From: Argopecten irradians
Lineage: Eukaryota; Mollusca; Bivalvia; Pectinida; Pectinidae
Reading direction: 5' to 3'
DNA length: 64,000 bases
NCBI RefSeq assembly: GCF_041381155.1
Contig: NC_091135.1
Coordinates: forward strand, 6,005,620-6,069,619
Position 1 is the stretch's first letter. Every line of letters starts with the position of its first letter. Positions 13,001-59,100 of the stretch are shown here, one piece after another. Under the pieces are notes generated by a model. The model did not search any database, was not told the origin of the DNA, and saw only the letters and a program-made list of their open reading frames with translations. A program made the translations under genes and the position numbers.

Positions 13001-16000
13001 CTACAAAGACCACTCTCTATTGTTTCAAAGTAAAAGCAATTCGATTTATCATTTTATTCGTTCATGTTTATCCTATTACTATATAAAAAATGTCAATCTC
13101 GCCAATCAGACCCCTGCAGAATTAACCCCACATTGACGTCCTACGCTGATGGTCATGGAAACTGCCGCCATTACTGGAAATGTATCGATAGACTGTCCAC
13201 CGCTATTTGTTGTCCGTTCGGAACTGGATATGACAGTGAACGACGCCAGTGTACCGAAAACGCCAGGTGCAATTCGACATGTTCACTGTATGTCAAGACT
13301 GACGGACCAACAGGTAAGTTGTCTCTTCAATCTAAGGGGAAAGGACAAGATTGAAATTAATTAAGATTGATTTAAAATACCTTGTCGTTATGTTTAAAAT
13401 ATATTTACATCACTCCAAAGACGGAATATGCGAAACATGGGTAAACAAAGTCCTTTTAATTTAAATGTGATTTGGAGAAAAATATAATAAGATAATTTCA
13501 TCGATTGATTTAGACATTTTCCTTACTATGCTAAAATACTGCAAAGACGGACTATGCAAGTTACTTTCATGATGACTACTAGTAGTTTGGTACTAGTTAC
13601 AAATTGCAGAACGTTGATTACGTTACTCAAAAATCTAAGTTCTAATATTATAAATGAACTTATCTTCCCTCAAAATTCCGGCAGGCCACATCGAAAACCC
13701 TTTTGTAGTTACCAATGTTTATAATGCTCAAACTATTTTACTGAAAATGTTCGTTTCAAGAATATATGTATGTTTATTTTGCTTTAAAATGTTTAGCAAA
13801 TTATACCGTTTCTATACTCAATCGGGTTATGAGATCACGTAAAATTTGATGAATACGATGACAATATCAATCATAACCATATTGCATTTTTGCTTAAAGA
13901 TGCTCCACCGCCGACAGAGCATAAATGATATTAATCATTTGAACAATAATTGGTGTTTAATCGTGTATATATATGCCTAATTAACACAAAAAAAAATAAA
14001 AATAATTATTTCGCCTTGGTGCATGCGCAATCAGTACTTCATTCCATATAGGATAGTGACATTTTTCGGGATGCAATAATTATTTTCAAATTTTTAACTT
14101 GAAGTAAAATTAGTAGCTCAAACTTTTCAATGGTGGTAATGGTGTAAAGTAAGTAACTTTTGTAACTGAAGAAAATACTAAATCGTCTGCTACCGTTTTT
14201 TATAGTGAAAAAATACCATTTTTGCATCTTTAATATTTTGCGAGTAGAAGGTCTTATTTTGCCTGTACAATGTGTATAATTGTTGTACTTCGTCATTTTG
14301 CGATTAAGTCTGTGTTGACATTTTATAGTTGAATGCATTAGCAGACGACAGAATGGGCGATAATTACGATGGATTGAGATGTATTTTATCGCCCTTTGTC
14401 GAAGTTAATGAATAGAGGTCAATGTATTGAACCCATACATTTCTATCATATCAGGTCAGACTAGTTTTTTTTAACTCTGTAGGCGGAAAGTGGGGGAGTG
14501 TGACTTACGTATGTATGGTTAATGTATTATACCATCACACATGTCGGAGACACCTTTCTGTGTTCGATTACAGAGACATATGTCTTTGTTCGATAACTTA
14601 TAACATGCCCCATTTATATAGGAATCATACTTTTAATTCAATCAGTAATAGAAACACTGGGGACTATTTCTCTAACTGTATAGAATAAATGAGTATAACC
14701 ATATTTGTCATCAGAAACACATTTCTAAGTTCTTTATTTATTTAATTATTTATTTATTTTGCTTATAGTATACCAAAAATTTCTGTTCACTACTTAGTAA
14801 CACTGAAGATTATTTTCCTATTTGCATTACATAAATGAGTACATTATATAACAACATTTCACGTCAGAGACACTTTTCAACGTTCTTTAACTTATGATAA
14901 ACCGAATTACATAGTGTTTATACTCTAAATTAACTGGAAATGGTTTGACTATTTCTGCATGCAGTTTTCAAAGGCACCGCTAACCAAAAAGGTTAACGTA
15001 GCAGTGTTGAGAAAATCTCTGTTTCTACTGGTTACTGTACATTACAATAGGAAAATATTTAAATCATAAAAGAAAGGCTACTAATACATTTTCTATCCCT
15101 GGATGATGTGACGGAATCCCGCTCCTAAATAGTTTGATCTGAAGAGCTCCTTTATAACCACAGTTAAGGCTGTAAAAGATACCTAAGTAGTTACCGAAAG
15201 TTACCACAGTTAGGGTTGAAGAAGGTTATATGTGGTTTGAGAAATTTACCACAGCTAGCGCTGATGAAAGTAACTAGGTGGTTTCCGAAAGTCACCACGG
15301 TTAAGGTTGAAGAAGGTAATTACATTTTATAGATGGTTGTCGAAACCTGTGAATAAACATTTTGTTGAGAGACTATGATTATGTGACATCTATTATAACA
15401 TTTCTTTTTTTTCTACTCCTTTTTTTCCAGAGAGCAGCAGATCCCAGGTGGTGTGTAGGAATGAGAAGGACGTGTTACGTTGTCCATCAGGGGACGTTAT
15501 TCGCGTAAGAGAAGCCATTTATGGCGGAGCTGATCCGATGACATGCAGGATTGAACAGGACACGACATCGTGTACGAATGTAGACGCCACCAAAGTTATC
15601 GCACAGGAGTGCAATCGTAAACAGACATGTGAAATCAGTATCGGTAGACTCCTGTCTGACCACTGTCCACGGATCGCCAAGCAAATCGATGTTCGCTACG
15701 TGTGTGAAGCAGGTATTTATAGACAGTAGATGGTGTTAATTGAAATGTCAATTCATTAATTAAGATACATTTACGTATGCATGGTTATACTTATCGGAAG
15801 AAAATCACGTGCAGTAAAACCTCTATGAGCCAAACTCTGACAATTAATCTATTTTCTCCCTAATTGCTTCACTGTATTACACTCTCAATGAAACCCATCA
15901 CCTTATATAACATTTTACAAATACAAGTTTTAGTTGTGTCGAACTCTTCCTATGGACCGTAAGATATGATTGCATGGGTTTTTTGCTTTACTTAACTATT

Positions 16001-25062: not shown

Positions 25063-25884
25063 CAACCAACACATTGTTATGATCCCAAATTTTAGTATTG
25101 AATGAATATCCAGAATTAGAAAAATGTTAGGTCGAATTCCGTTTCATCTTCATTTTTATGTCAGTTTGGGAAATGCTTAATTAAGTTTACAGATAAATAC
25201 TAATATACAATTATTTAAATACTGAATCAACTTTTAAAATGTGTTCATGTGTTGGCCTATTTTGAAGTGTTTTCTTTTCATAATACCAGATATACTCTAA
25301 AACGTTGGGCTATCACAAGGTTCCATGCTTAGTGATTGATTTTTCCATATTCTAAAAAAGTATTTAAAATAATTAATGATATCAAGGAAAAAAACCAACA
25401 ACATGGCACTACATCGTATACTACATATGGAATGGGGTACTAATTGTGCAGACAACAAAGCAAAATCAGATACATGTATTTCAAATATACACGATTAAAC
25501 ATCAATTATGCCCCGTCGGCAGTGGAACATCTTAACGTGAACTTATGCCAGTGTGTCGAGAGAAACGTACAAAATGAATTGAACCCCCTCCCCTCCTACT
25601 TGAGGTGTCGATTTACGGATTTGTTAACATGGGATACTATCCCTTATAACAGTTTCGTGTTTGACGAGTTGTACATTTTTGTACCTTTGGGAGTTTTAAG
25701 TTCTGTCTTTAGCATTCCAGGAACTGGGCGCCTACCCATGGTTTACCCGTTATAAGAGTCAGTGACAGAAAGTTTGTTTGTTTGCTTACAATATATTTGT
25801 ATTGGCAACGAGAAAACAGTTTTATCATATTTTACCTCTTTATGCTGAACGTCAAAGCAAAAGTAGAGTCTTGTTTGTCGGCTC
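25063..25884. other. Intergenic, nothing recognised
   Basis: One open frame of about 100 codons (25444-25755) lacks a family resemblance or splice context and is not called. Confidence 0.4.
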
Positions 25885-26792
25885 CGGAACTGAAGTCAAG
25901 GTTCATTACAAGAACGATGCTCATCTCTGGAATTGAAGTCAAGGTTTTCATTACAAGAACGACGCTCTTCTCTGGAACTGAAGTCAATGTTTTCATTACA
26001 AGAACGACGCTCTTCTCTGGAACTGAAGTCAAGGTTTTCATTACAAGAACGACGCTCTTCTCTGGAACTGAAGTCAAGGTTTTCATTACAAGAACGACGC
26101 TCTTCTCTGGAGCTGAAGTCAAGGTTTTCATTACAAGAACGACGCTCATCTCTGGAACTGAAGTCAAGGTTTTCATTACAAGAACGACGCTCATCTCTGG
26201 AACTGAAGTCAAGGTTTTCATTACAAGAACGACGCTCTTCTCTGGAACTGAAGTCAAGGTTTTCATTACAAGAACGACGCTCATCTCCGGAACTGAAGTC
26301 AATGTTTTCATAACAAAGACGACGCTCATCTCCGGAACTGAAGTCAAGGTTTTCATTACAAGAACGACGCTCATCTCTGGAACTGAAGTCAAGGTTTTCA
26401 TTACAAGAACGACGCTCATCTCCGGAACTGAAGTCAATGTTTTCATAACAAAGACGACGCTCATCTCCGGAACTGAAGTCAATGTTTTCATTACAAGAAC
26501 GACGCTCATCTCTGGAACTGAAGTCAAGGTTTTCATTACAAGAACGACGCTCATCAAGGTTTTCTGGAACTGAAGTCAAGGTTTTCATTACAAGAACGAC
26601 GCTCATCTCTGGAACTGAAGTCAATGTTTTTCATAACAAAGACGACGCTCATCTCCGGAACTGAAGTCAAGGTTTTCATTACAAGAACGACGCTCATCTC
26701 TGGAAATGAAGTCAAGGTTTTCATTACAAGAACGACGCTCATCTCCGGAACTGAAATCAATGTTTTCATAACAAAGACGACAATCATCTCCA
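25885..26792. repeat. 45-bp minisatellite array, about 20 units
   Basis: The unit contains GAACTGAAGTCAAGGTTTTC, ATTACAAGAACGACGCTCAT and CTCTG. Variants: CTCTTCTCTGG in the first third, CTCATCTCTGG and CTCATCTCCGG later, and a CATAACAAAGACG version paired with TCAATG. Because 45 is a multiple of three and the unit lacks stops, several frames on both strands stay open as 15-residue repeats. That is expected from the array and is not evidence of a protein. Confidence 0.92.
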
Positions 26793-27348: not shown

Positions 27349-27802
27349 GTACAACTTAGTATCTTGTACGTACAAGTTAGTATCTTGTACGTACAACTTA
27401 GTATCTTGTACGTACAAGATAGTATCTTGTACGTACAAGTTAGTATCTTGTACGTACAACTTAGTATCTTGTACGTACAAGTTAGTATCTTGTACGTACA
27501 ACTTAGTATCTTGTACGTACAACTTAGTATCTTGTACGTACAAGATAGTATCTTGTACGTACAAGTTAGTATCTTGTACGTACAACTTAGTATCTTGTAC
27601 GTACAACTTAGTATCTTGTACGTACAAGATAGTATCTTGTACGTACAAGTTAGTATCTTGTACGTACAACTTAGTATCTTGTACGTACAAGATAGTATCT
27701 TGTACGTACAACTTAGTATCTTGTACGTACAAGTTAGTATCTTGTACGTACAAGATAGTATCTTGTACGTACAAGTTAGTATCTTGTACGTACAAGATAG
27801 TA
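27349..27802. repeat. 21-bp array 1 (22 units, TTGTACGTACAA palindrome)
   Basis: Units of 21 bp, AGTATCTTGTACGTACAA plus three variable bases. Only three versions of those bases occur: CTT, GTT and GAT. In order they read C,G,C,D,G,C,G,C,C,D,G,C,C,D,G,C,D,C,G,D,G,D (C=CTT, G=GTT, D=GAT). Frames stay open because 21 is divisible by three. It is the inverted partner of the array at 28629. Confidence 0.95.
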
Positions 27803-27924
27803 TAATGTTGAAACTCTCGGTATTAAAGGCTGTGGCTGGTTTACGTCACCATGGTATCGCATGAAGCTATACGTATATTACGTACCCTTTGTTTAAGCCA
27901 AAGGGAAAAAAGAATATCTTGCGA

Positions 27925-28310: not shown

Positions 28311-28628
28311 TATCCATTTTATCACTAAATGTATCTTATCTATAAAACAAGCGACTATACAGTTTCCTCGAAAGGAACTATACAGTGTCAGTTTCAAAAT
28401 AATGCAAGTGACTATACAGTTTCAACTCATAATCCGGCAATTTCAAACTACGATTGGGAAAAAAAGATATTGTCCTCATTAATATATATTTATATTTTTC
28501 ATATTGTCAAATAAGTTAATAAACCTGTGATCGTACTAAGCAATGCAAAGTAGACCGACTATCTTTAATTACGAAAAATATCAGGCGGGTGACTCAATTC
28601 TGCGGTGATGAACAGCAGTTCAACTCAA

Positions 28629-28939
28629 CTTGTATGTACAAAATACTAAGTTGTACGTACAAGATACTATCTTGTACGTACAAGATACTATCTTGTACGT
28701 ACAAGATACTAAGTTGTACGTACAAGATAATAACTTGTACGTACAAGATACTAAGTTGTACGTACAAGATACTATCTTGTACGTACAAGATACTAACTTG
28801 TACGTACAAGATACTAACTTGTACGTACAAGATACTAACTTGTACGTACAAGATACTAAGTTGTACGTACAAGATACTAAGTTGTACGTACAAGATACTA
28901 TCTTGTACGTACAAGATACTAACTTGTACGTACAAGATA
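28629..28939. repeat. 21-bp array 2 (about 14 units, inverted to array 1)
   Basis: The unit is AAGATACTA, three variable bases, and GTACGTAC in this strand; it is the reverse complement of array 1, with the same three variants only. One unit has AAGATAATAAC. Together with array 1 it flanks about 830 bp in inverted orientation. Confidence 0.95.
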
Positions 28940-32305: not shown

Positions 32306-33647
32306 GTAAGTCTTCTTCTCAAAATAGTGAAAATCTGATTTATTTATAGGAAAACTGGTTGAATTTTCATGAATTTTCAATGAATTTGAATGGCTTTAGA
32401 GATATCAATAGATTTATATTTATGTTCACCAATTTACATTTTTGACTTCTTCAGAAGTAATTTCAATGAAATTTTGCACAAACCTTCTAAGGCAAAAGGC
32501 CAATCAAAATGGTGAATCATATAATCCCCACCCCAAAGGGCAATCATGGAGGGGCCAAAGGGGTAAAATTGACTAAAATTTCAAAAATCTTCTCCACTCC
32601 CAGATGTGGTAGAATCAAATACTATTCATAGATAGAAAGGTCTTAAAAGGTCCTTTACAAAAATTATGAATTATATGACCCAAGGGTTTCATGTTTCCCT
32701 CTGGGGAGGGAGGTAAATTTACTATAGTTCATTTAGGGAAAACACATTTTTAAGCATTATTTGGTCATTTGTAATTAGTAATGAGTCAAATGTTGTAAGA
32801 ATTATCAGTTTGAAATGGCCATTATATTCACAGATTTGATGGAACAAATACTCTTTATAGATTAAAATGTCAAATTTATAAAATCACTGACTGACTTCAA
32901 AGGCTTGATGGGCCAATATATATTGTGTACATGTCTTTGTTTCATTCTGAATCCGAACTCAGGTGACCGGTAAGGTCCATAGGCCTCTTGCTTATACATT
33001 GTATGTGTAATAAGTTTATAAATCCCACTTGAGGTAGACTCAGTTGCCAGACACTGACTGCAGGTTGGTGTTTTTATCACAGGAACTCTGCATTTTTCCA
33101 CTTCCTGAAGCTTGCACATATCCTTAAATGACCCGTACTGGGAGGTGAAACAAAAAAAAAACAAAGAAACTAATAAATTGTTCAATATTTTGATTTTGTC
33201 TGAAGCCTGCTATATGGATAATCTGCCCTTGGTTTATATTTAGGCTCTCAGGATGTGGCCTGTGATGAAGAAACACTACACAAGTACAATGTTACACATA
33301 TCTTAAATGTGGCGTCATTTGTGGATGAACATTTCCCAAAAAGCTTCACCTACAAATCTATAAAGATAGACGACCACCCTGATTTTGAAATTACTAGAAC
33401 ATTTGACAGAGCTTTTCAGTTCATCGATCAAGGTCGTGCTTCAGAGAATGGTGTTGTGCTTGTCCATTGTAATGCCGGAGTTTCTCGAGCTGCGACCATC
33501 GTCATTGCTTACCTGATGAGCAGCGAGGGAATGACTCTTACACATGCCTATAGTCATGTCAAAGATAAACGTCCCGCGATTCGCCCCAATGATGGATTCC
33601 AAAGTAAGCTGAAAGCTTATGAAGAAGAACTGAAAAGACAGAATTGA
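32062..33647 (+). CDS. DUSP19: Dual-specificity phosphatase 19 (whole gene, one intron)
   Basis: Coding exons 32062-32305 and 33244-33647 join to 648 nt, 215 residues. The ATG at 32062 lies in CATCATGG (A at -3, G at +4) and gives MASGKKKSFCGSL. The N-terminal part (SNLKKTDTKVITVGGESYIE, then DMQVGEILPGLLL) resembles the leader of DUSP19. The catalytic domain follows: HILNVASFVDEHFP, YKSIKIDDHPDFEI with the likely general-acid Asp (124, 125 or 128), and HCNAGVSRAA with catalytic Cys157 and Arg163. All key residues are present. DUSP19 (SKRP1) is a small atypical phosphatase linked to JNK pathway control through MKK7. It lacks a MAPK-binding CH2 domain, as expected. Gene order around it gives no functional hint. 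Confidence 0.93.
32435..32790 (-). mobile_element. Pearl-like element fragment in the DUSP19 intron
   Basis: Reverse complement of the 2900-3260 region: CAATCAAAATGGTGAATCAT, AGATGTGGTAGAATCAAATA, GGTCCTTTACAAAAATTATG and CTCTGGGGAGGGAGG match in order on the other strand. It lacks the ACGG tail and terminal repeats. Likely an old fragment. Confidence 0.7.
33244..33647 (+). CDS. DUSP19: DUSP19 coding exon 2 (catalytic)
   Basis: Acceptor TATATTTAG. Encodes residues 82-215 with the HCxxGxxR loop HCNAGVSR and the AYLMSSEGMT helix. Stop TGA at 33645-33647. Confidence 0.92.
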
Positions 33648-34490: not shown

Positions 34491-37400
34491 CAAGAGGCCC
34501 ATGGGCCTTAACGGTCATCTGACTCATTGCACACAAACAACAAAGTCACAGTATAAAGTATTGGTTAACGATTAATATAAACAATACAAGGAACTCCTTA
34601 GTTGAATATGTAAGTTTCTGAAATAGGTAAATGTCATTCGTTGAACAAACTTGGTAGCCCTTCATCCATATATGGTTGTAACCCATTTTACGAATTTTAA
34701 AGCCAAATTTCAGCAAAGCTTCCATTTTGGACATCCGCCATACTATCCCCATGGGTCTTAGTTCGGTCCTTTATAAAAATATGATTGTCCTCACCTAAAG
34801 TTCCCCTTCAGAATCAATTAAAACCCCTATAGACCAATTTCCTCTGAGATTGGAGACCGAAATCTGAAAACAGGAAGTGGGCGAGCAGCTAAATTTAAGA
34901 AAATTTGCCCTTTTGGGGCCCCGCACCTCAGCCCCAAGGGGTCTGACCAGAGACTCATATATATAAAATAGGATTGTCCTTCCCCAATGATGTTTCACAC
35001 CAAATATGGATGAAATCCATCCAAGGATGAAGGACTAGTAGGATTTCAAAGCTTAGATTAAGAAAATTTCCCCTTTTTAGGCCCCGTCCCTCTGCCCTAG
35101 GGGGTCGGACCAGGCTCATTTATATAAAATATGATTGTCCTTCCCCAATGATGTTTCCACACCAAAATATGGATGAAATCCATCCAAGGATGAAGGAGGA
35201 GTAGGATCTAGCTTAAATTAAGAAAATTTGACCTTTTGGAGCCCCGCCCCTCTGCCCATAGTGGTCGGATCTATTTCATTTATATAAAATATGATTGTCC
35301 TTCCCCACTGATGTTTCACACCAAATATGGATGAAATCCATTCAAGGATGAAGGAGGAGTAGGATTTTTAAAGCTTAAATTAAGAAAATTTCCCCTTTTG
35401 GAGCCCCGCCCCTCTGCCCCCTAGGGGTCGACCAGGCTCATATTATATAAAATATGATTGTCCTTCCCCAATGATGTTTCACACCAAATATGGATGAAAT
35501 TCATACAAGGATGAAGGAGGAGTAGGATTTTAAATCTTAAATTAATAAAATTTTTCCTCTTTTGGAGCCCCGCCCCTCTGCCCCTAGGGGTCACCAGGCT
35601 CATTTATATAAAATATGATTGTCCATCCCCAACGATGTTTCACACCAAATATGGATGATATCACCATCCAAGGATGAAGGAGAAGTAGGATTTTAAAGCT
35701 AAAATTAAGAAAATTTGCCCTTTCGGGGCCCCACCCCTCAGCCCCTAGGGTTCGGACCAGGCTCATTTTATATATAATATGATTTTCCTTCCCCAATGAT
35801 AATTTTACACCAAATATAGATGAAATCCATTCAAGGATGAAAGAGGAGTAGGATTTTAAAGCTTACATTAAGAAAATTTGCCCTTTTGGGGCCCCACCCC
35901 TCAGCCCCTAGGGGTCGGACAAGGCTCATTTATATAAAATATGATTGTCCATCCCCAATGATGTTTCACACCTAATATGGATGAAATCCATCCAAGGATG
36001 AAGGAGGAGTAGGATTTTAAAGCTAAAATTAAGAAAATTTGCCCTTTGGGGCCCCATCCCTCAGCCCCAAGGGGTCGGACCAGGCTCATTTATATATAAA
36101 ATATGATTGTCCTTCCTCAATGATATTTTACACCAAATATAGATGAAAATCCATTCAAGGATGGAAAGAGGAGTAGGATTTTAAAGCTTTTAAATTAAGA
36201 AAATTTGCCTTTTTGGAGCCCCACCCCTCAGCCCCTAGGGGTCGGACAAGGCTCATTTATATAAAATATGATTGTCCATCCCCAATGATGTTTTCACACA
36301 CCAAATATGGATGAAATCCATCCAAGGATGAAGGAGGAGTAGGATTTTAAAGCTAAAATTAAGAAAATTTGCCCTTTTGGGGCCCCACCCCTCAGCCCCA
36401 AGGGGTCAGACCAGGCTCATTTATATAAAAATATGATTGTCCTTCCCCCAATGATGTTTCACACCAAATATGGATGAAATCCATTCAAGGATGAAGGAGG
36501 AGTAGGATTTTAAAGCTTAAATTAAGAAAATTTCCTCTTTTGGGCCCCATCCCTCAGCCCCTAGGGGTCGGACCAGGCTCATTTATATAAAATATGATTG
36601 TCCTTCCCCAACGATGTTTTACACCAAATATGGATGAAATCCATCCAAGGATGAAAGAGGAGTAGGATTTTAAAGCTTAAATTAAGAAAATTTGCCCTTT
36701 TGGGGCCCCACCCATCAGCCCTAGGGGTCGGACCAGGCTCATTTATATATAAAATATGATTGTCCTTCCCCAATGATGTTTCACACCAAATATGGATGAA
36801 AATCCATCCAAGGATGAAGGAGGAGTAGGATCTAGCTTAAATTAAGAAAATTTGACCTTTTGGAGCCCCGCCCCTCTGCCCATAGTTGGTCAGATCTATT
36901 TCATTTATATAAAATATGATTGTCCTTCCCCACTGATGTTTCACACCAAATATGGATGAAATCCATTCAAGGATGAAGGAGGAGTAGGATTTTAAAGCTT
37001 AAATTAAGAAAATTTCCCCTTTTGGAGCCCCGCCCCTCTGCCCCTAGGGGTAGGACCAGGCTCATTTATATAAAATATGATTGTCCTTCCCCAATGATGT
37101 TTCACACCAAATATGGATGAAATTCATACAAGGATGAAGGAGGAGTAGGATTTTAAATCTTAAATTAATAAAATTTCCTCTTTTGGAGCCCCGCCCCTCT
37201 GCCCCCTAGGGGTCACCAGGCTCATTTATATAAAATATGATTGTCCATCCCCAACGATGTTTCACACCAAATATGGATGATATCCATCCAAGGATGAAGG
37301 AGAAGTAGGATTTTAAAGCTAAAATTAAGAAAAAATTTGCCCTTTCGGGGGCCCCACCCCTCAGCCCCTAGGGTTTCGGACCAGGCTCATTTATATATAA

Positions 37401-38686
37401 TATGATTTTCCTTCCCCAATGATATTTTACACCAAAATATAGATGAAATCCATTCAAGGATGAAAGAGGAGTAGGATTTTAAAGCTTACATTAAGAAAAT
37501 TTGCCCTTTTGGGGCCCCACCCCTCAGCCCCTAGGGGTCGACAAGGCTCATTTATATAAAATATGATTGTCCATCCCCAATGATGTTTCACACCTAATAT
37601 GGATGAAATCCATCCAAGGATGAAGGAGGAGTAGGATTTTAAAGCTAAAATTAAGAAAATTTGCCCTTTGGGGCCCCACCCCTCAGCCCCAAGGGGTCGG
37701 ACCAGGCTCATTTATATAAAATATGATTGTCCTTCCCCAATGATATTTTACACCAAATATAGATGAAATCCATTCAAGGATGAAAGAGGAGTAGGATTTT
37801 AAAAGCTTAAATTAAGAAAATTTGCCTTTTTGGGGCCCCACCCCTCAGCCCCTAGGGGTCGGACAAGGCTCATTTATATAAATAAATATGATTGTCCATC
37901 CCCAATGATGTTTCACACCAAATATGGATGAAATCCATCCAAGGATGAAGGAGGAGTAGGATTTTAAAGCTAAAATTAAGAAAATTTGCCCTTTTGGGGC
38001 CCCACCCCTCAGCCCCTAGGGGTCAGACCAGGCTCATTTATATAAAATATGATTGTCCATTCCCCAATGATGTTTCACACCCAAATATGGATGAAATCCA
38101 TTCAAGGATGAAGGAGGAGTAGGATTTTAAAGCTTAAATTAAGAAAATTTCCTCTTTTGGGCCCCATCCCTCAGCCCCTAGGGGTCGGACCAGGCTCATT
38201 TATATAAAATATGATTGTCCTTCCCCAACGATGTTTTACACCAAATATGGATGAAATCCATCCAAGGATGAAAGAGGAGTAGGATTTTTAAAGCTTAAAT
38301 TAAGAAAATTTGCCCTTTTGGGGCCCCACCCATCAGCCCCTAGGGGTCGGACAAGGCTCATTTTATATAAAATATGATTGTCCATCCCCAATGATGTTTT
38401 ACAACCAAATATGGATGAAATCCATCTAAGGATGAAGGAGGAGTAGGATTTTAAAGCTGAAATTAAGAAAATTTGCCCTTTTGGGGCCCCCACCCCTCAG
38501 CGCTAAGGGGTCGGACCAGGCTCATTTATATAAAATATGATTGTCCTTCCCCAATGATGTTTCACACCAAATATGGATGTAATCCGCTCAAGGGTTAAGG
38601 AGGAGTAGGCTTTTGTATAAATAGTCTTACGCACGACGCACGGCGCACGGCGGACGGCGGACGGCGCACGGCGCACGGAGCACGAC
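34491..38686 (+). mobile_element. 4.2-kb satellite-bearing element (pearl-like)
   Basis: The leader CAAGAGGCCCATGGGCCTTA is followed by AACGGTCATCTGACTC; from memory this start is very common in bivalve genomes. Next come a unique ~300 bp, about 24 satellite units of about 162 bp, and a tail of ACGGCGCACGGCGGACGG type repeats. Leader, satellite core and ACRG tail match the pearl plan, but the 17-bp flanking duplication is not typical of Helitron-type insertion. No coding capacity. Confidence 0.8.
34880..38610 (+). repeat. 162-bp satellite array, about 24 units, with 1.62-kb higher-order repeat
   Basis: Each unit has ATATGATTGTCCTTCCCCAA, TGATGTTTCACACCAAATAT, AAGGATGAAGGAGGAGTAGG, TTAAATTAAGAAAATTTG and GGGGCCCCACCCCTCAGCCC. 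Marker variants recur at a distance of 1617-1627 bp: GGATCTAGCTTAAATT (35205, 36829), CCATAG.GGTC.GATCTATTT (35254, 36880), TTTCGGGGCCCC-type (35722, 37343), GCTTACATTAAG (35859, 37481), CCCACCCATCAGCC (36709, 38327). So ten monomers were duplicated as a block. Confidence 0.9.
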
Positions 38687-47262: not shown

Positions 47263-50112
47263 TCATTGCACTGATAATTGCGTATCCTTGTTACGCTTGG
47301 GTGGCGGAGGGGGTGGTTTCCCCTTTTTACCTACGGATCCCTCCTTTGGGTTGTCTAACCCAGCTAAGAGTTCTGGAGGGGGTGGGGGTAGGTCATTTAT
47401 ATCCATCATTCCATCACATTCCTCAAACGTTTCGTAAATAGGATCAATATGAGTCGTCACTGCCGAACTATCACTTTGGCCTGGAAGTTCACTAGATAAA
47501 CGCGTTGTTTCACTCCGTTTCGGGGGCGGAGGTGGATACATTTTTTTATTGTCGATGGTTCCCCCTTTATTGGAGTTGACAGAGTTTGGCCTAGGGGGCA
47601 CTGCTGGTCCATTCGAAGGATGGTGGTGTCCCCCCTGGGGCTGCCCCTGGTGATGGGGCTCCCCATGTGGGAATCCTTGGTGTGCATGACCTTGTCCATG
47701 TGAATACAAAGGCTCCCCATGGGGGTGACCTTGATGATTTGGGCCCCCATGAGGACCTCCATGATAACTAGCACCGTTAGAAGATGTTTTTGATTGGCTT
47801 TGATCTGTAGGTTTCGGCAGCGTTGCTGGTGGAATTTTCCCGTTGGATCCTCGATTTTGGTGAGGTCTCTTAGACAGTTCTGCTATAAATGGAAGTGGTT
47901 GTTGCTGTGCATATATTCCTTCCTCCTGTGATGGTGACAATGGAGTGGAGTGCTCCGAGTGGGATGATTGGATCCGTACTCCGGCAGAACTGTGGGGGCG
48001 GGGCATCGCCATGGAGACAGGTGGAGGGGGTGGGGGGACATTACACGAGTGGGTGGATCTGGCCTGTGGACCAGGGCGTACACGTATTTGGTCGTACATC
48101 GTATTATCCTGCTGGGACGCTGTGGAGTAGGGCACCTGTTGTCCACCTGGATGTGGTCCACCCTGATGGGGACCCTGGTGACTACTTTGATATGACCCCT
48201 GGTGTCCTCCATATACATGTTGAGGTATCTGAGGGGAGGAGGACGACTCCGGGAGGGAGGTTCTTACCCCACCGCCACCCATCATAGGGTCAGATGTCGA
48301 CATGACCTGGGTGTGTTTGGGATTCTTGACAGTTGGTGAGGACACCGAGTGGTTGATGACAATCGGCGGAGTGGGAGGTGCCACCGGAATGGCGGCTTTA
48401 CTTGGTGAGGCTCCAACTGTCTCGGATCCGGACTTCGATGATCGACGAATATGCCCCATACCAGAAGCAGACTGACCCCCGACATACTGGTTTTGTAGGA
48501 GAGGCATGGGAGGGGGCATGGGTACCATCCCCTTTGGAGTGGAAGGGGACGACATGCTGGAGGGGGTAGGAGAACCAGAACCCATATGAGTAGATGGGCT
48601 ATCTGCAAGATTACTTTGGGCCATGGATATATGTGTCTGAAGCATGGAAGTGGGTGGAGGGGGCAAAGGTGGCTGTGACAGGGGTAAGGGGGATGGGGGT
48701 TTGGTCATGTGTCCAGGTGGAGGCATTGGAGGGGGCGGGCTTTTATTTGCAGAAACAGGAGGAGAGGGCATGGGGGCTGGGGATGGGGGTTGGGGGAAGT
48801 GCTGTGAGGGGTAATTTGAATGTTGTGGATAATTCTGATGTGGTGGTTGGGGAGGGGCAGGACGGGATTTCACTGGGGGCGACATCAATGGCTGCGGCAT
48901 CCTTATATTAGATGGGGCTGGTGGCACAGGTGGAGCCCTGCCCTGGGACTTTCCATAGTAAGGAAGGGGTGGAGGAGACATCATCTCATCCCGACTGTAC
49001 GGGGGATGAGGCGGGGGAGACATCATGTCCCTGTAGGGGGGCGGAGAAGACACCATCTCTCGCTGTGGGGGTGGGGATGTTGGCATCATAAGTTTGAGGG
49101 GTGGGGCCTGACTTGAGGATGAAGGGGAGGGTGGAATCACGGGATGACAAGTTGGATAGGGCTGGGTGGGGCATTTAAGTGGAGGTGGGGAGGGGGGAAC
49201 CTTATTGAGAGCGTGAAGGTTTTGTGGAGATGTGTTCTTTGACGATGGATTTGAGGGTATTGTTGTGTAATCCAGGGACTGAGACAGCGACTTCGAGTCT
49301 CGACTATCTCGACTCTCACGACTATCTCGGCTACCGTCCGAACCTTTTCTTTCATGTCGCCTTATGCGATCCTCGTGTAATGCTGGAGCAGATTTTCTCC
49401 GCTCTTTGTCCTGCGTTTGTACCGGACTTGTTATTGAGGGCTTGCGTTCGTGGCCCATAGAATCACAGGACGACACACTACTGCCCTCCATGGCCGTTTG
49501 ATACATTTCAGAAATCTGCTTTGTGGTGCCTGTTGTAACAGGAAGTTTAGCGCGCATCTTACTCCTGGATGATGTCATGGTGTGTCTGTTTTCTCCACTA
49601 GAATTGGAATCCTCACTGGAGTCCGTCGATGCACTGGTGATTGAATCACGATGTCTTACATGAACCAACTCTTCCCCAGAGTCTGCGTTTATTACACTAT
49701 GGGTATTGCTGAAGGAGACACGTTTAACAGGCTGTTTGGGCATACCGCCCATTTCCATAGAATGCTGTCCTGTTAATGAAGATTTCCTCTCATGATGATG
49801 ATGGTGATGGTGATGATGCGATGAAGACGATGAGGATGATGTCACTTCTAACGAGACTACATCATCTTCTACGATTGTGCTATCACTTCCTGAACTATTT
49901 CGCACTAAATTAGTATTTTTCACAGCAACTATAGAATGTCGTGATCCAGGCTCTGGCATAGAAATACGACTGTCATTTAAATTTCCCTCTGTGTTTAAAT
50001 TAAGAATGGTTTCCCCAGAATCGTCGGATATGCTGCTCCGAAGGTCACGAGTATCCCAGGATGCCACTTCCCTTTGAAGACGTTCATAGTTGGCCAAGAG
50101 TTGCTTCCCATA
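47263..50112 (-). CDS. RAPH1: MRL last exon: proline-rich tail and stop
   Basis: Acceptor CTGTTTCAG; begins [20 protein letters not shown], the end of the RA-PH unit, and runs 949 codons to the stop at 47263. Contains Ser runs followed by ten His (about 49800-49820), long Pro-rich stretches with PPPP motifs, a Gly/His/Pro segment with [12 protein letters not shown] and [13 protein letters not shown], and a C-terminus [18 protein letters not shown]. Candidate EVH1 ligands: [16 protein letters not shown] and DLPPPPPE. Other PxxP sites may bind SH3 domains. The open frame extends upstream to 50202, but that part is intron. Confidence 0.94.
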   Translation of the reverse strand, partial: YGKQLLANYERLQREVASWDTRDLRSSISDDSGETILNLNTEGNLNDSRISMPEPGSRHSIVAVKNTNLVRNSSGSDSTIVEDDVVSLEVTSSSSSSSHHHHHHHHHERKSSLTGQHSMEMGGMPKQPVKRVSFSNTHSVINADSGEELVHVRHRDSITSASTDSSEDSNSSGENRHTMTSSRSKMRAKLPVTTGTTKQISEMYQTAMEGSSVSSCDSMGHERKPSITSPVQTQDKERRKSAPALHEDRIRRHERKGSDGSRDSRESRDSRDSKSLSQSLDYTTIPSNPSSKNTSPQNLHALNKVPPSPPPLKCPTQPYPTCHPVIPPSPSSSSQAPPLKLMMPTSPPPQREMVSSPPPYRDMMSPPPHPPYSRDEMMSPPPLPYYGKSQGRAPPVPPAPSNIRMPQPLMSPPVKSRPAPPQPPHQNYPQHSNYPSQHFPQPPSPAPMPSPPVSANKSPPPPMPPPGHMTKPPSPLPLSQPPLPPPPTSMLQTHISMAQSNLADSPSTHMGSGSPTPSSMSSPSTPKGMVPMPPPMPLLQNQYVGGQSASGMGHIRRSSKSGSETVGASPSKAAIPVAPPTPPIVINHSVSSPTVKNPKHTQVMSTSDPMMGGGGVRTSLPESSSSPQIPQHVYGGHQGSYQSSHQGPHQGGPHPGGQQVPYSTASQQDNTMYDQIRVRPGPQARSTHSCNVPPPPPPVSMAMPRPHSSAGVRIQSSHSEHSTPLSPSQEEGIYAQQQPLPFIAELSKRPHQNRGSNGKIPPATLPKPTDQSQSKTSSNGASYHGGPHGGPNHQGHPHGEPLYSHGQGHAHQGFPHGEPHHQGQPQGGHHHPSNGPAVPPRPNSVNSNKGGTIDNKKMYPPPPPKRSETTRLSSELPGQSDSSAVTTHIDPIYETFEECDGMMDINDLPPPPPELLAGLDNPKEGSVGKKGKPPPPPPKRNKDTQLSVQ

Positions 50113-53100
50113 CTGAAACAGATAAGTTAAGCGCTTAATTTTACTGTAGCGTATGGAGATAACTAATGGTTTAACAGACATAATTATCTGACATAATATC
50201 ATGCCTTTTTTTGTTTTAAATACAATTTAATTTCGGGAATTTTCAATTTGTTATTTCTTTTAATTTAAATTGCTCTGGTTCTACTTAACATGTATAAGTA
50301 CTTGATTTTACAGGTAAGTTTGCCCTATTCCACTAGTCCTTAGCATCAGAGTTGACCTCCGAGTCTAGGGTCAAGGACAAGAAAACGAACAATAGTAAAC
50401 TTCATATTATCTAAAGAGTATTTAGTCTAGAGAAAATTATTGACACATATTTGACCGTTGACCATAATGTCAAGGTCACAGTGACCTTATGCAATGACAA
50501 TGCACTGCACATCCTCTGTAAGTGATGCAAGTTCCACATCTTTGATATATTTTAGAGAGTTTATATGACATGAACAGTAAATTGTAAGAACCTTTGCAAA
50601 TGACAAATTTCCCCTTCATTTGAAAAGACCATAATATATCATCAAAATGTGTATGAATCTGTAATCCAATTATAAGTCCCATTGACTTCCAAGTTAACAA
50701 AGCTTCAGTGTATACTTAATAGCTTAAAGGTCACGAGATTGACACAAAATAACTTGACCCAGATACACACATGTTTGTGATTGTAAAAATCTCTACACAA
50801 TTTCCTTAAAACAGACTATAGCTCATTAAATACTTAACTTAAATTAAACTAAAAACCACCATACCATACTTGTAAGGGCACACAACTATACATCTAACAT
50901 ACAGTGCTCTGGATATGAAACCACTGTCTAGATTTTATACAGAGAAGATAGCAGCAACGCAACAAATGTAATTTGTACATCTGATCATTCAAATTATATC
51001 TAAAAAGTCTACAAAATTTCTTGAAATTATTTTACGATATATAATTGATTACATTGAGTACATCACTACGGTGACATTTATATAAGCCTTACAATCCAGA
51101 CCAATGGTCAGACGTGCTCACCTTGGCTATACGAATTCCCATCACCCACTGGTCCAGAGCAGCTTTATTCTCCGTACAGAAGTAGCGGATATATTTTGAC
51201 GTCTTCTTCTGAATCTGAGGATGCTGCACAGATAGAGAAAAGCACAATATCAATTTTCATCTTCAAAAGCGCCTTTTTTGTTAGTGATAAGCGAGATAGT
51301 TACAAGATCCCAACTGTACCCTGTAGGGGCATGGTCTCTCCTATCAGACATCTGATAAGGGATAATTGTTTATAATGAGACTGCCTGCCTACCCTATTTA
51401 GAAAATGTGGTTTGTCCCATGATGTACGCATAAGTGAAAGCTTAGAGACAGTTAAACTTGTGTTCCAACTGAAGGTCAAGGCCAGTCAAATGTCACGACA
51501 CTTTTTAAAATTCATCTCAGATTTGCTGTTGGAAAATCACAGCACATGATCTCCCAGGAAAACTGGACACTTCAGAAAGTTCATCTTTAAGTGGACGTGC
51601 TACAGTACATCTGTGTCCCTCTGTGTTATTATATAGGCAGGGGTGATGTGTCTACCGGGGGACTTAGCAGCCAAAACACTGCTACACTTTATAATGGATC
51701 TCACAGTATGAAACACAAGAGCACACATACAAAATCTGGCTAAAATTAAACTTGTGATTACGATAAGCCGGGACTGAAGGATGTGAACTTGCTTTCTCAT
51801 AATGATTAAGTCACGGACCAAAAACAAAGTAAAACGTGTATTATTTCTTGGGTGATTTCATCGATACTTATGTTGTTAAGGTTTTTGTTACATTTATCAG
51901 GTTACACCCACCCCACCTAAATGAACCCTCCCTAAAAAATGTCACTTATAATGACCTCTCCCTTAGTGCATGATTAATTTATTACTCACGTTTTGAAGGT
52001 TTCAGAATCAAGACTAGCCTTATCTTATATATCAGATCAGTGTGGAATTCATCAGAGCATATTAGTGAAGCCAGCAATTATCTTAGTACCAAAAGGTGCA
52101 AACATGAAATTATACCATGTTAACTGCATTTTAATCATCTTATCACTCATTAAAAAAAAAAAATAGCTAAAACTGTACCAAGCATTGAGGAATTTTTCTA
52201 CTGGGATCTTCATTCTAGAGTAATTTATTTGATAACACTAAAGAATGCGTAAATGTTAGAATATAGCATGACCTTGCTTGATAATTTCTTCATTTTATCA
52301 GAACACAACATATATAATTGAGTTTTCAAATCTCAAAATATCATGGTACTAAATAGGACCATCTTCATCTGATTTAGAACAGTTGTCATTGAACAAAATC
52401 ATCTTAACATCTGAGCGATGATTTGGATGATCTATCAAAATATCAGTCTTAATCAGAATCAATTTTTCGGAATTATATTGTCAATACTGTCTCATCTCAA
52501 CCTTGAGTGGAAGTAATATCTTCATATACCATCCTAACCTTTATTAAATTGATACATATTTTTTTTATCTAAATAATAAATGGATTGCCTTTAGGATAAA
52601 ATGGAGATCTCTTAACATTGTTTGAAATGATATGAAGAGATCTGAACAAAATAATGTTTTATCCGTAAATCCTAAATGTGATGATTTTATGCTCTTAACA
52701 TATTTTAAGATTACTCCATGGCCTCAAATTATCCTTTAACTTAAGATCTTAACATTGAAAGAACTGTCGTCCAGGAGGCCAATGGTTTATCTAGATAAAC
52801 AGACAGACAGACAGATGGACAGACAGACAGACGAACATTACACAGACATTACACAGACCAACATATAGATAGATAAACAGACAGACAGACAGACGGACAA
52901 ACAGATATTGGTATAATTAACTTTAGCTACCAATATCTCCTATTGTAAAATACATCATTAGTTGAAGTTTAATTCAGACAGGACATTTAGGTGATTATGT
53001 CCAGACTGACCATTCCAATTGATGAAAATACATCTTTATTATCAATAATGGGAAAATGGGGAATATAACCAATGACAAAATTAGACAGGAAGCAAATTCA

Positions 53101-56100
53101 CTTGTGAAAGAGGATAGGAAATCGGGGATAGATATGAAAACTAGGAAGTTTACGAAAGGGTCAAAGTCTATAAACTATGTATCATAAATATTCATTTCCT
53201 GCCCCAAATCTGAGTCAATATGTGGCTAATATCAAGCTGGACTGGTTTGTACACAACTAACTGAACTCATATATATTCCAAGGAAAATTTTATCCTAGGA
53301 TATATAAACCACTTTAATAAGAATTTGTATAAAGAAATTAATATCAATTATATATAGATAAAATCCTAAATTAGCTAAATCTCTCATATTTTGTAACCCT
53401 TTGATGATTTTTTGAAGTCCCATGGGATTTACAATGGTAAACAAGCTTAACTCTCACTTGATGTTTAAAATGATGGACACCTTAACCACTTTGCTACCAC
53501 CGCTACGAGTCGGTAACGGGATGCTTACCTTGAGGGCGAAACAGTGATCAGTAGGAGCATGGTATTTCTTTTTCCAGCCAAGGCCAAAGTACACATCCAC
53601 AAAGTCAAACTGAACGAGACAGGTTAAGTCCTTGGACGACTGAAACAAAAATTAATAGTAAATAACAGTTATCTCCCTTTCAAAATGGCAGTTTAATTAG
53701 CTCCCCTTACAATTCATCTTGTATATCTATTTCAATTATATCCTCATGGTCATCTTCCTTTTCAGTATTTCTTATCATGTAGCATTTTGTAAAAAATATT
53801 TGAGATACACAAAGCAAATTAATATGATTAACTAAAGTATTGAGATTTCTCAGCTAACATTGTAACACTTCAGACAGAAAATGAAAACTTCCAAACAGGA
53901 CAGAAAAAAACTTCCACAGTAAGTTCTGATGGCCAGCTTCACCATAAAGTTGAAATTTACCAGTGTGTAATACAAGTTTATATTCGTCAGCTCAAACAAT
54001 CTGCCATGGAAACTTCAGCGTGCCATCTACCTTGATGTAATAAATGCATCAGACGTGCCACACTCAACTTCCTCACTACCAACACGATCATAAGATCTGC
54101 TTCCCCTGAAAGTTTGAATCCTTTGCAATGCATCAGAATGCAATTTGAGCTTTTTCATGACTGAGTTCACTTGGTATATAATATGTACATATATATCACA
54201 TTTAAAGCAGCCATGTTGTTTTCCCATTCTGACTTGGCTACACAAAAAGTAGAGAGGTTTTTGAACAGTTGCCAATGCATTTTACATTAACTACCCATAG
54301 TTATGTAACTTAAAACAAACAGGTTAGCTGAGCAGTGAAGAGCTCCAACGTCACCGAACACTTGGTGCGAGCCTTTGATAGAATGTTGTTTAGTCTCCAC
54401 CACTAGACTGAAGTAGGAATAGGAAATAGCACTATCTATAAATACTGACTATTGTTTAGGTTTAACTTAATTGTTTATTTTATACAAAGGTATTCCAAAA
54501 TAGAAAGGTTACTCAATAATGTTAAATATGCAGCATGAAGCAGCTCCAATTTCTCTGTGATGAGATAGATACAGTGAGATTCATTTTTCTCTATATAAAT
54601 AACATTACCATCCTCTGTCATTTTGTTATGTTAAAGTGTAATTTAGAAGCCTTTAAATTCTAAGATCAAAGAATGCTCATCTTATAGACTGATTTTGAAT
54701 CACAAGAACAAAAGATCTAATTAACATCTAATGACTAATTGCCTTTAGTGAAAAAGTCAGAAAACATTCCATAGAAAGGTTTCTCATAGACTAGACCTAA
54801 GAATATCAAAAGCTCTGACGTAGTCTTGTTATCGAGGCTTCAATTTCTTGAACAGGTGAAGTGTTTTTGTGTCTTGAATGACTTATGTTTTGCTAATGGG
54901 TAAGGCATCAGTAAGAGATTGCTTCCCTTGTCTTGTAACTAATCTGTAATTCCTCGTATGTCTATAAATGTATAGTCCACAGACCAAAACATAAGGACTA
55001 TTTTGTGTCTCAATGCTTTCAGAAAAAAAATACAAGCAAATCCTTAAAAATCTGAAGTTAGTGATTTTGCCCTTGAAGTTGATAGAAGACCTGACACCCT
55101 CAGAACTAACACCCACCTCATGCACCTTACTGATTTTGCCCTTTGGGTTATAGTAGAGACCAGACGCCCTCAGAACTTACACCCACCTCAATCACCTTAC
55201 TGATTTTGCCCTTTGGGTTATAGTAGAGACCAGACACCCTCAGAACTAACACCCAACCTCACCTTACTGATTTTGCCCTTTGGGTTATAGTAGAGACCCG
55301 ACACCCTCAGAACTAACACCCAACCTCACCTTACTGATTTTGCCCTTTGGGTTATAGTAGAGACCCCACACCCTCAGAACTAACACCCAACCTCACCTTA
55401 CTGATTTTGCCCTTTGGGTTATAGTAGAGACCCGACACCCTCAGAACTTACACTCACCTCGATCACCTTACTGATTTTGCCCTTTGGGTTATAGTAGAGA
55501 CCCGACACCCTCAGAACTAACACCCAACCTCACCTTACTGATTTTGCCCTTTGGGTTATAGTAGAGACCCCACACCCTCAGAACTAACACCCAACCTCAC
55601 CTTACTGATTTTGCCCTTTGGGTTATAGTAGAGACCCGACACCCTCAGAACTAACACCCAACCTCACCTTACTGATTTTGCCCTTTGGGTTATAGTAGAG
55701 ACCAGACGCCCTCAGAACAAAGAAGTATTTTTTCCAGGCCTTTTTCCCATCAGACTTTAAGTACATCACACCCTCAACCTCTGGCACCTGGGCACCTCCT
55801 GTGAAAAATTCCTGAAAGTCAAAAAGAGGAAACGGTTGATTATCTTCAAATTTCAAACATACATGCTTATTCTTGAATTACATGTAAGAAATTCCCCTCT
55901 GCTTTATGGCATAAATGGCCATTGAAACACCATTTTGATTAAGAATGCATTTGCCTTCTCTTTACTTTAATATGTTTAAAAAGTTATACCATTATTGTCT
56001 TTTAATTAAAGGTCAGCCCTAAACGACCCTGGTTGTTGATTGGCCTTTAATCTAAACTAAACAAACAAGCTTTAAGACTCTATAGTGAAATAAAAATGTC

Positions 56101-59100
56101 TGTGTCTTTGAAAAAGTTCCTAAAAAGCAGGAATTTTAGTTTGCTGGACTTTTCTTGTCCACAGAAATAGACAATGAGTTTAGGAAGAAGATAAGCTTTT
56201 AAATTACTTACTTCATACAACCATGAAGAAACCAGCCTTATATATATACTGACAAAGTTTTATCATTTTCAAGGAACATATTTGCAGACAGACTTTGCAG
56301 ATTGTCTCGCATGTGAAAAAATGCTCGGGTTTTATTTAAATATACACTGACATACAAAAACATATATCATTGATATAAAACTCACATAAATAAGTCTTTG
56401 GCGTTTACTAGGATCGAGTGAGGCTCCTTTCTCTGATGAAGAACTAACAAGCAAGTATTTCTGTGAAAAAATATGTATAATATAACATACAAAATTAACA
56501 ACAATCAATATCATGGTAACAGAATTGCAATTCATAATTGAACAATAAAATAAATATATAATTTTGATTTGAACAGATATGTCCTAAAAGTGTAGAGAGG
56601 ATAGACCCAGGAGCTCTGAGAGGTAAAGCAACCTCTTCTTTATGGACAAACTTTAGCATACAAACCTATAATCGTATTCAAAAGTAGTCAAAACAGCATC
56701 AACAACATTGTTGGCGATGGAGATAAGAAATTCTCTATAAAATATACGTGTTTTAAGAGATAACAGAGAGACAATACATATTGCTTTTTTGAAACCTTAA
56801 CAAATATGACATGAGTTACAAAAGCAGTTCTTACCTCTGGTCTACGAAATAAGTCGTATTTTTCCTGCCGTTCCTCGAACATGATTTTATTTTTACTGTC
56901 GCGGGTCCACATCACCATATTCTCCACCAACGAGTCGTGATCCTCTAATATCCGCTCTGAAATGTCGCAAGGGGAGATAATCCAATATAGAATTGTTTCT
57001 AAAAGTTAAGTATATTGGGACAAGACTATGCCGCTTTCATTCATAATGCTAATCAATGGATACCAAGCTTTACCACATTCAGACGAGATGAAAAAATTAA
57101 ACCAAATAACTTGTAAAGATATTTCTATGTATGTCAAAAACATCCTAGTTCTGAGATACAATGAATGGATCGTTTCCAAATTGCAAATGATTTTTGCTTA
57201 CATGGAATATTGAACTTCGTCCACACTTTGGTGTTAAGTGTTTGGTATCAAATGATTACCATGCTCTTCACTAGAACTCACATAGTTAAGTTTCTCTCCA
57301 GTCCATTAAAATTACACAAACATACAAAGTGTTACAGTAAAATATACAGTAATAAGCCTGAACCACAATAGATATGATTCAGCTGAGAAACCATTAGAAC
57401 AATGCTATAAGAACTATTGCACCAGGATGCTGTAGCTAAACCAGAATCATGTGCCAACCTAAGACTGTTTTGTTGCATAACAGTGAGGATTTCCTCTCTA
57501 TCAATAAAACTTTTCGTTTTTCCCGTTTCAAATTCATCCGACACAGCTGTCTTCAGCACTTTAGAAGTTAAGAGTGACTTCCTGTTTTAACTACATACCA
57601 TGGCAGGAGCACTGCCAGGTTTTCAGTGACAGCTTTAACATATATCATCTGGTTTTTACATTTCAGATTTTACATTGAACAAATCCAAACAATATCGCAA
57701 CATCTCTTGAAGTTGAATAAACAAGAATTAAAGTAATTCATGTTAGATCGTAACTTTATCAAAAGATTAGAATACAGCTACTTTGGAACAGTTCAGGGTA
57801 AACGTGCATCGAACCATGTTGAGATCCTCATTTTAAATCTACTTATTACATAATTAAAGCCATCTGGTGGTGTGTTTTACATGACATTCTAAAACAAGGT
57901 TGCTTTCACAAACTGGAAAAAGGTACAAGGTAATTACTACACATTTCAGATTAGTTACAGGAACTCGACTGAAACTTGAAACCCCAAATAGCCATTAGGT
58001 CTTCCTTACCAGTTAGCCTGCAGCAGGTTATTTTTGCCAATGGTGTTATTTGGAAGTATATCATATGTACTGTACACACTTAAGTTAAACTATAAACAAG
58101 TATGTTATACTTTTCCAGAAACATTCAAATTGGGCAAGCTACACAGACAACTGCTTTATATCTGTAATGATGTCAGAGGTTAAAATATAGGTCACAGTGA
58201 CTATAAATATAGGTCACAGTGACTATAAATATAGGTCACACTGACTATAAAAACAGGTCACAATTAAGACACTAAATATTATTTACAGTGACTAAATATA
58301 TATCATGTTTGCATGTGAATCATGACTTTATTTTTAAGTTCAAAATATACCCCTGGTAATCTTATTTAGTTTTTGTCCACATAAAAGTAGCGGCTAATAC
58401 TCCGGGAAATATGGTAAGTCACAGTGACCATAGCACATGCATGACACACCTAGGTGGTTCTGTTACTGAAGTATGAAGTTCAAATAGTTACAATTAGTGT
58501 TGGAGATAGTGATAGGACAAGATAATGTGTGGAAAATGGAAGGATATGGGCAGAAAAAAGAATGGATACAATATGAATCTGACATTTTAGAGTGGCAAAG
58601 TATTTTTACCATTCCTTGTTAATTTAAGCTACTGGTGGAGTTAAGTTGACCCAGGACTGGGAATTTGTTTGATTGCTTCACACCTTACAGGAGAGTTTAT
58701 CTCCAAGGTCTGCCACTAATTACAAGACGCGGTAATAAAGGAAACTGGTTATCCCCCCCATTCCTGTGATGTTTTATACTGTAATTAACTAGCCAGGCTA
58801 AATACAGAATCGACATTTCAAACGAGACAAAAACACTTGAACGCTCTCTTAACAAGAATGCTCTTTACAATGGCTTTCTACAAGAATCTGTTTTACTTTT
58901 AGAACAACTACTTAACATAAGATCATGCAATGCAGAGAGACAGATTTTGTTTATCTTTGAAAGCAATTTCAGAGAAAAATATATGAATAAAAATCTTCTT
59001 TATTGAGATTTTGAATACGTCATCTTAGAATCTTGTGAAAGGTTCATGTTATCAACCAAAAAAAATAAAGTGATAGACATTTCAACTTTAATTTTTTCCC

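Follow-up and report, generated by a model that had tools for sequence, protein, structure and literature searches.

When the 3′ end of a coding exon is repeated, together with its 5′ splice site, many times over in the intron that follows, which of the resulting donors serves the gene, and what do the others do to it? The question is raised by a locus in the window, the whole 64,000-nucleotide stretch of Argopecten irradians DNA analyzed here, in which a 144-nt exon on the minus strand runs into a tandem array (55717-55052) of head-to-tail units of 67 or 70 bp. TRF, run on the window, delimits this array as 55058-55718, with a period of 67, 9.7 copies and a score of 1092. Units 1 to 9 each consist of the last 50 nt of the exon followed by intron sequence, 17 nt in copies 1, 2, 3, 5, 6 and 7 and 20 nt in copies 4, 8 and 9, which corrects the division into about 45 and 22 nt given in the initial annotation. 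The nine further repeats that it described do exist, but the ninth is diverged and partial and has lost its donor, so that the ten copies comprise the genuine junction (copy 1), the near-identical copies 2 to 9, and a relic, copy 10. The exon and the copies are as follows, a slash marking the exon-intron junction and each donor being given by its last exon or exon-like base:

55668 to 55811, minus strand: exon PH1 of an MRL gene (RIAM/lamellipodin-type), 144 nt, phase 0-0, ending AAG/GTGAGG; its last 50 nt also form the exon portion of copy 1
55651 to 55717, minus strand: copy 1, the genuine exon end, donor AAG/GTGAGG, last exon base 55668, 17 nt of intron
55584 to 55650, minus strand: copy 2, 67 bp, donor 55601; holds the premature TAA met by any later donor
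55517 to 55583, minus strand: copy 3, 67 bp, donor 55534
55447 to 55516, minus strand: copy 4, 70 bp, two donors, a weaker one at 55467 (GTGATC) and, at 55458 (GAG/GTGAGT), the strongest in the array
55380 to 55446, minus strand: copy 5, 67 bp, donor 55397; copies 5-6 equal copies 2-3 (134 bp identical)
55313 to 55379, minus strand: copy 6, 67 bp, donor 55330
55246 to 55312, minus strand: copy 7, 67 bp, donor 55263; same sequence as copy 2
55176 to 55245, minus strand: copy 8, 70 bp, donors 55196 (GTGATT) and 55187 (GAG/GTGGGT)
55106 to 55175, minus strand: copy 9, 70 bp, donors 55126 (GTGCAT) and 55117 (GAG/GTGGGT); exon part as in copy 1
55052 to 55105, minus strand: copy 10, a 54-nt partial, diverged relic, whose donor region reads ACTAACTTC

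Over the 50-nt exon part, copies 1 to 9 differ among themselves by 0-3 letters, and when bases 1-30 of the unit (taken from copy 2) were compared without gaps to sequence outside the array, the best match had 12 mismatches in 30, against 0-2 for copies 1-9, which excludes chance similarity. The junction CAGTAAG/GTG is present in nine of the ten copies and takes the GTGAGG form in six; five of the nine extra copies carry the complete CAGTAAG/GTGAGG (last exon-like bases 55601, 55534, 55397, 55330 and 55263), exactly the number first counted. Copies 4, 8 and 9 have GTGATC, GTGATT and GTGCAT instead, and each bears a second donor 9 nt downstream, GAG/GTGAGT at 55458 and GAG/GTGGGT at 55187 and 55117, respectively. 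Every position in the earlier list of donors carries one, but that list missed 55196 in copy 8, 55126 in copy 9, and the second donors at 55458, 55187 and 55117.

The exon belongs to a recognizable gene, whose neighboring parts lie on either side of the array:

56386 to 56460, minus strand: preceding exon (linker), 75 nt, donor TAT/GTGAGT
53529 to 53639, minus strand: next exon, PH2, acceptor after tttgtttcag, donor AAG/GTAAGC
donor at 51122, minus strand: PH3 exon
from 50112, minus strand: PH4 exon

The PH1 product covers the start of the PH domain and matches both lamellipodin (4gn1, E 1.8e-15) and RIAM (4kvg, E 1.3e-14). The joined product of the linker and PH1 to PH4 aligns over query residues 10-156 with RIAM (4kvg, E 1.1e-52), as well as with lamellipodin (4gn1, E 7e-51), and is assigned a PH domain by Pfam (E 1.1e-10); these matches uphold the original reading of a PH-domain exon, and the domain has the sequence of the MRL (RIAM/lamellipodin) family. 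An open frame that can be aligned with RIAM is maintained from PH1 to PH4, the joined product having one residue more than RIAM at the array junction. By eye only, RA-like exons can be made out near 61013 and 56957, and the last exon, which lies within 47263-50112, looks proline-rich.

Donor choice at this locus has a sharply divided outcome. Donor 55668 keeps the frame through the PH domain, whereas splicing from any of the eight later CAGTAAG/GTG donors would lengthen the exon by 67 to 542 nt and bring in one shared TAA preceded by 14 extra codons (codon 63 of the exon plus insert), so that the in-frame stop and the truncation within the PH domain, both anticipated in the initial annotation, are borne out for each of them. 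This stop ends at 55623, upstream of all three second donors (55458, 55187 and 55117). Exons ending at later donors would be 211-695 nt long, compared to 144 nt for the normal one. At the level of sequence, the array has one trait of poison-exon regulation, an alternative splice choice that would bring in an early stop. Two other views of the units were considered. That the copies act as small exons was rejected: an AG precedes TTCTGAGGG in each unit, but the sequence upstream of it is, by eye, G-rich and without a pyrimidine tract, no usable acceptor was seen by eye within the unit, and no new intron is evident. An ancestral exon 9 nt longer, ending GAG/GTGGGT, may have existed; it would be in frame, but would add three residues at a point at which RIAM already lacks one.

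Where donors are duplicated, earlier work reportedly favors the intron-proximal site, which would count against the first donor, and Eperon and colleagues reportedly used laboratory substrates with duplicated 5′ splice sites, in which identical donors compete upstream of one acceptor; those were engineered test RNAs, whereas the present locus offers a natural series of nine. Its donors had been described as equal, and five later copies do match copy 1 in U1 pairing energy, but the best value by both U1 pairing and weight matrix belongs to 55458. For pairing with the U1 5′ end, duplex energies are -10.1 kcal/mol for copies 1, 2, 3, 5, 6 and 7, -6.7 for GTGATC (copy 4) and GTGATT (copy 8), and -5.3 for GTGCAT (copy 9), while the second donors are stronger than the first donor, at -13.4 (55458) and -11.9 (55187 and 55117). 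U1 energy gives only a rough guide: a site within the exon (last base 55788, CAG/GTGCCA) also reaches -10.1 kcal/mol, but scores -0.47 by the weight matrix. That matrix gives 7.34 for 55458, 7.0 for the GTGAGG sites and 4.77 for 55187 and 55117, in agreement with U1 energy on the first of these and in disagreement on the last two.

Nor does predicted structure single out the first donor. Under local folding at 120/80, the predicted accessibility of the 9-nt site is 0.064 for copy 1 against 0.068-0.154 for the sites of copies 2 to 7; at 200/150 the values are 0.050 and 0.036-0.111, copy 1 being more open, among those sites, only than 55467 and 55263. On these values, the notion that folding hides the later donors was discarded; at 120/80, copy 1 is less open than all the sites of copies 2 to 7. 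The site at 55458 is predicted to be more open than copy 1 under both settings and the four sites of copies 8 and 9 less open under both (0.0004-0.054; 0.022 at 55187 and 0.0007 at 55117 versus 0.064 at the first donor), and predicted structure may weaken these last two copies. The best 25-nt score of a G4Hunter-type check, 1.48, is no more than suggestive of a G-quadruplex. Little in the sequence, therefore, marks out copy 1 as the preferred donor.

An array of this form was initially thought to be without a described example, a view that does not hold, for amphioxus “mirages” (PMC3087553, PMC3902484) and human boundary repeats (PMC2812944) precede it. Mirages are reported as minisatellite-like tandem duplications at 5′ and 3′ exon-intron boundaries (PMC3087553), with units that carry duplicated splice signals (PMC3087553, PMC3902484). 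Both traits are found here, the units of copies 1 to 9 spanning 50 nt of exon and 17 or 20 nt of intron and CAGTAAG/GTG recurring in nine of ten copies. Cases are described in Adh3, TnC and the globins BflGb6 and BflGb9, with something similar in PGBD5, and unit sizes are comparable to those of the scallop array (10-72 bp in Adh3 (PMC3087553), 60 and 108 bp in PGBD5, 150-160 bp in globins). Mirages are also dynamic by these accounts, with somatic instability at Adh3, one globin gene whose haplotypes carry 6 and 3 units (PMC3087553), and a copy number that differs between two versions of one lancelet gene (PMC3902484), and the draft assembly of one of them appears aberrant (PMC3087553). Adh3 data and globin RT-PCR are reported to reveal no interference with regular splicing (PMC3087553; also PMC3902484), and the repeats, it is suggested, might serve as cryptic splice sites (PMC3087553). 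The scallop array differs in its gene, of which it affects an MRL PH exon, and in its ten copies, against up to seven in the amphioxus cases compared here. Among human genes in segmental duplications, 27 intron modifications by tandem repeats are reported (De Grassi and Ciccarelli, 2009; PMC2812944); these internal repeats are likewise expanded boundary minisatellites able to alter splicing, but they concern segmentally duplicated primate genes, where they can give rise to coding repeats or new introns, whereas in the scallop array no unit but the first seems to encode protein. A further reported case (PMC2891723) resembles ours in a tandem duplication that bears splice signals and has a premature stop in the duplicated piece, and differs in that here the duplicated piece holds an existing donor and no new intron is evident. 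The structure of the array has thus already been described, and the locus is a striking instance of an established type of repeat.

The copies also record something of their history. Copies 2-3 are identical to copies 5-6 over 134 bp, a block duplication, and copy 7 is identical to copy 2, whereas copy 10 differs from copy 1 by several mismatches and gaps and lacks the donor. A homogenized interior with excluded edges is also reported for mirage repeats (PMC3087553), and the identity of copies 2-3 with 5-6, together with the diverged copy 10, conforms to it. With 0-3 differences per 50 nt among copies 1 to 9, the array looks very young. Variable alignment columns among these copies are fewer in the exon-derived part (3 of 50) than in the intron-derived part (8 of 20; Fisher p = 0.001), also when substitutions alone are counted (6 of 20 intron-derived columns; p = 0.013), the columns of such a test not being independent. 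Simple neutrality would not explain the lower variation of the exon part unless breakpoints cluster in the intron part. At the protein level, copies 1 and 9 encode LRASG, as do the RIAM and lamellipodin chains, and seven of the eight extra copies 2 to 9 encode LRVSG or LRVWG, a difference that would be expected if copy 1 alone were coding. Judged from the sequence, this pattern fits selection on copy 1 as the sole coding copy, with copy 9 perhaps retaining an older form.

The position of the array across an exon edge can be accounted for without invoking anything special. Tandem arrays, 14 in number, make up 15% of the window, and of 20,000 random placements 63% had at least one of the 14, the focal one included, covering an edge from a set of 12 in the MRL gene, with a mean of 0.93 arrays on an MRL edge against one observed; the 14 intervals were merged by hand from TRF rows with a score of at least 86 (37 TRF rows, lower-scoring ones being omitted), one of the 12 edges is approximate, and selection is ignored. 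Exon edges were also scanned for local duplicates, each with an 81-nt query against 1,200 nt on either side of the same strand and three plain shuffles, some edges being approximate. One of 18 edges, that of the array, had a duplicate (local score 76 versus 9 when shuffled), and none was found at the other 17 (scores of 8-14 versus shuffled maxima of 10-14). A general habit of forming mirages in this window was accordingly rejected, 17 of 18 edges having no duplicate and only one of 14 arrays, the focal one, covering any of the 12 MRL edges. More interesting than the position of the array is that the MRL gene tolerates it.

The window contains further repeats and coding stretches. A near-palindromic 21-bp unit (GTACAAG...CTTGTAC) forms two arrays about 0.8 kb apart (27349-27803 and 28627-28939), which match better inverted than direct (local scores of 281 and 173). 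About 20 repeats of a 45-bp unit, a multiple of three, occupy 25882-26790; stop-to-stop ORFs of 286 and 247 aa overlap this array, giving long open stretches on both strands, and over its full length there are stops in every frame. A satellite-like array of 23 copies of 163 bp spans 3.7 kb (34887-38614), directly followed by a CGCACGG repeat (38630-38684). Coding matches comprise a dual-specificity phosphatase exon (33222-33647; Pfam DSPc, E 4.2e-36), an exon for a SUEL-type galactose/rhamnose-binding lectin (15379-15729; E 4.3e-16), and a chitin-binding CBM_14 stretch near threshold (13034-13354; 22.0 bits versus a cut-off of 22.1). When the window is divided into 32 bins of 2 kb, 31 of them have a GC content of 0.30-0.40.

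What, then, is the array? It is very probably a young minisatellite of the mirage type, of which the first donor is used and the rest is a mild liability. A tandem duplication unit would have happened to span the 3′ end of the exon and its 5′ splice site and would have multiplied into the intron through unequal exchange or slippage. In the normal message, donor 55668 would be spliced to the acceptor at 53639, since no other join leaves the MRL PH domain intact; the remaining copies would be an intronic passenger that grows and shrinks and is normally excised with the intron. Exon definition (144 nt versus 211-695 nt) and the amphioxus parallel both suggest that the first donor dominates. If a later donor were used on occasion, the mRNA would carry a stop after 14 added codons and would give a truncated protein or undergo nonsense-mediated decay; some such leakage is plausible, since SRSF1 is reported to shift the choice among competing donors in human cells, with hnRNP A1 cited for the opposite shift (PMC5585400). 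The copy number probably varies between individuals, and the effect on the gene is presumably nearly neutral or mildly harmful. The combination of a decayed edge, copy 10, with a homogeneous interior is the pattern reported for mirages (PMC3087553).

It is unlikely that the array is instead a regulated poison device, its copies being kept because later donors divert a controlled share of MRL message into nonsense-mediated decay, a share set by copy number or by the levels of splicing factors. One early stop does serve all eight later copied donors, five of these equal the first, 55458 exceeds it by both measures, and variation is lower in the exon-derived part than in the intron-derived one; yet the array looks very young, with its 0-3 differences in 50 nt among copies 1 to 9, no donor survives in the copy that has diverged most, and comparable amphioxus arrays are reported to be harmless to splicing (PMC3087553). 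Quite unlikely is the bolder form of this idea, in which copy number, through nine donor-bearing copies and a fixed stop, would act as a heritable, quickly mutating rheostat of the wastage of mRNA for MRL, an actin/adhesion regulator. An assembly or haplotype artefact, in which misassembly has produced the array or altered its copy number, is likewise unlikely. Near-identical repeats are often misassembled, and the aberrant draft assembly of one mirage (PMC3087553) and the differing copy numbers of one lancelet gene (PMC3902484) are reminders of this, but two unit lengths in mixed order and a decayed edge copy are hard to obtain by misassembly alone, even if the exact number of copies is uncertain. 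Very unlikely, lastly, is a damaged allele in which the inner donors, above all 55458, are chosen and mostly truncated protein results, making the allele null or low in expression: 55458, 55187 and 55117 outrank the first donor in U1 energy, and the predicted accessibility of 55458 is higher as well, but the open frame from PH1 to PH4 aligns with RIAM, LRASG is retained only in copies 1 and 9, and an exon of at least 354 nt would be disfavored by exon definition.

Read as a young mirage-type minisatellite, the locus is an unusually clean one at an exon boundary, in which nine copies bear donors at a spacing of 67-70 nt, a single stop serves as a readout of misuse, and stronger decoy donors lie inside. 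The scallop MRL gene provides a natural test of how the first donor is chosen among many and of how far tandem repeats are tolerated at splice sites.
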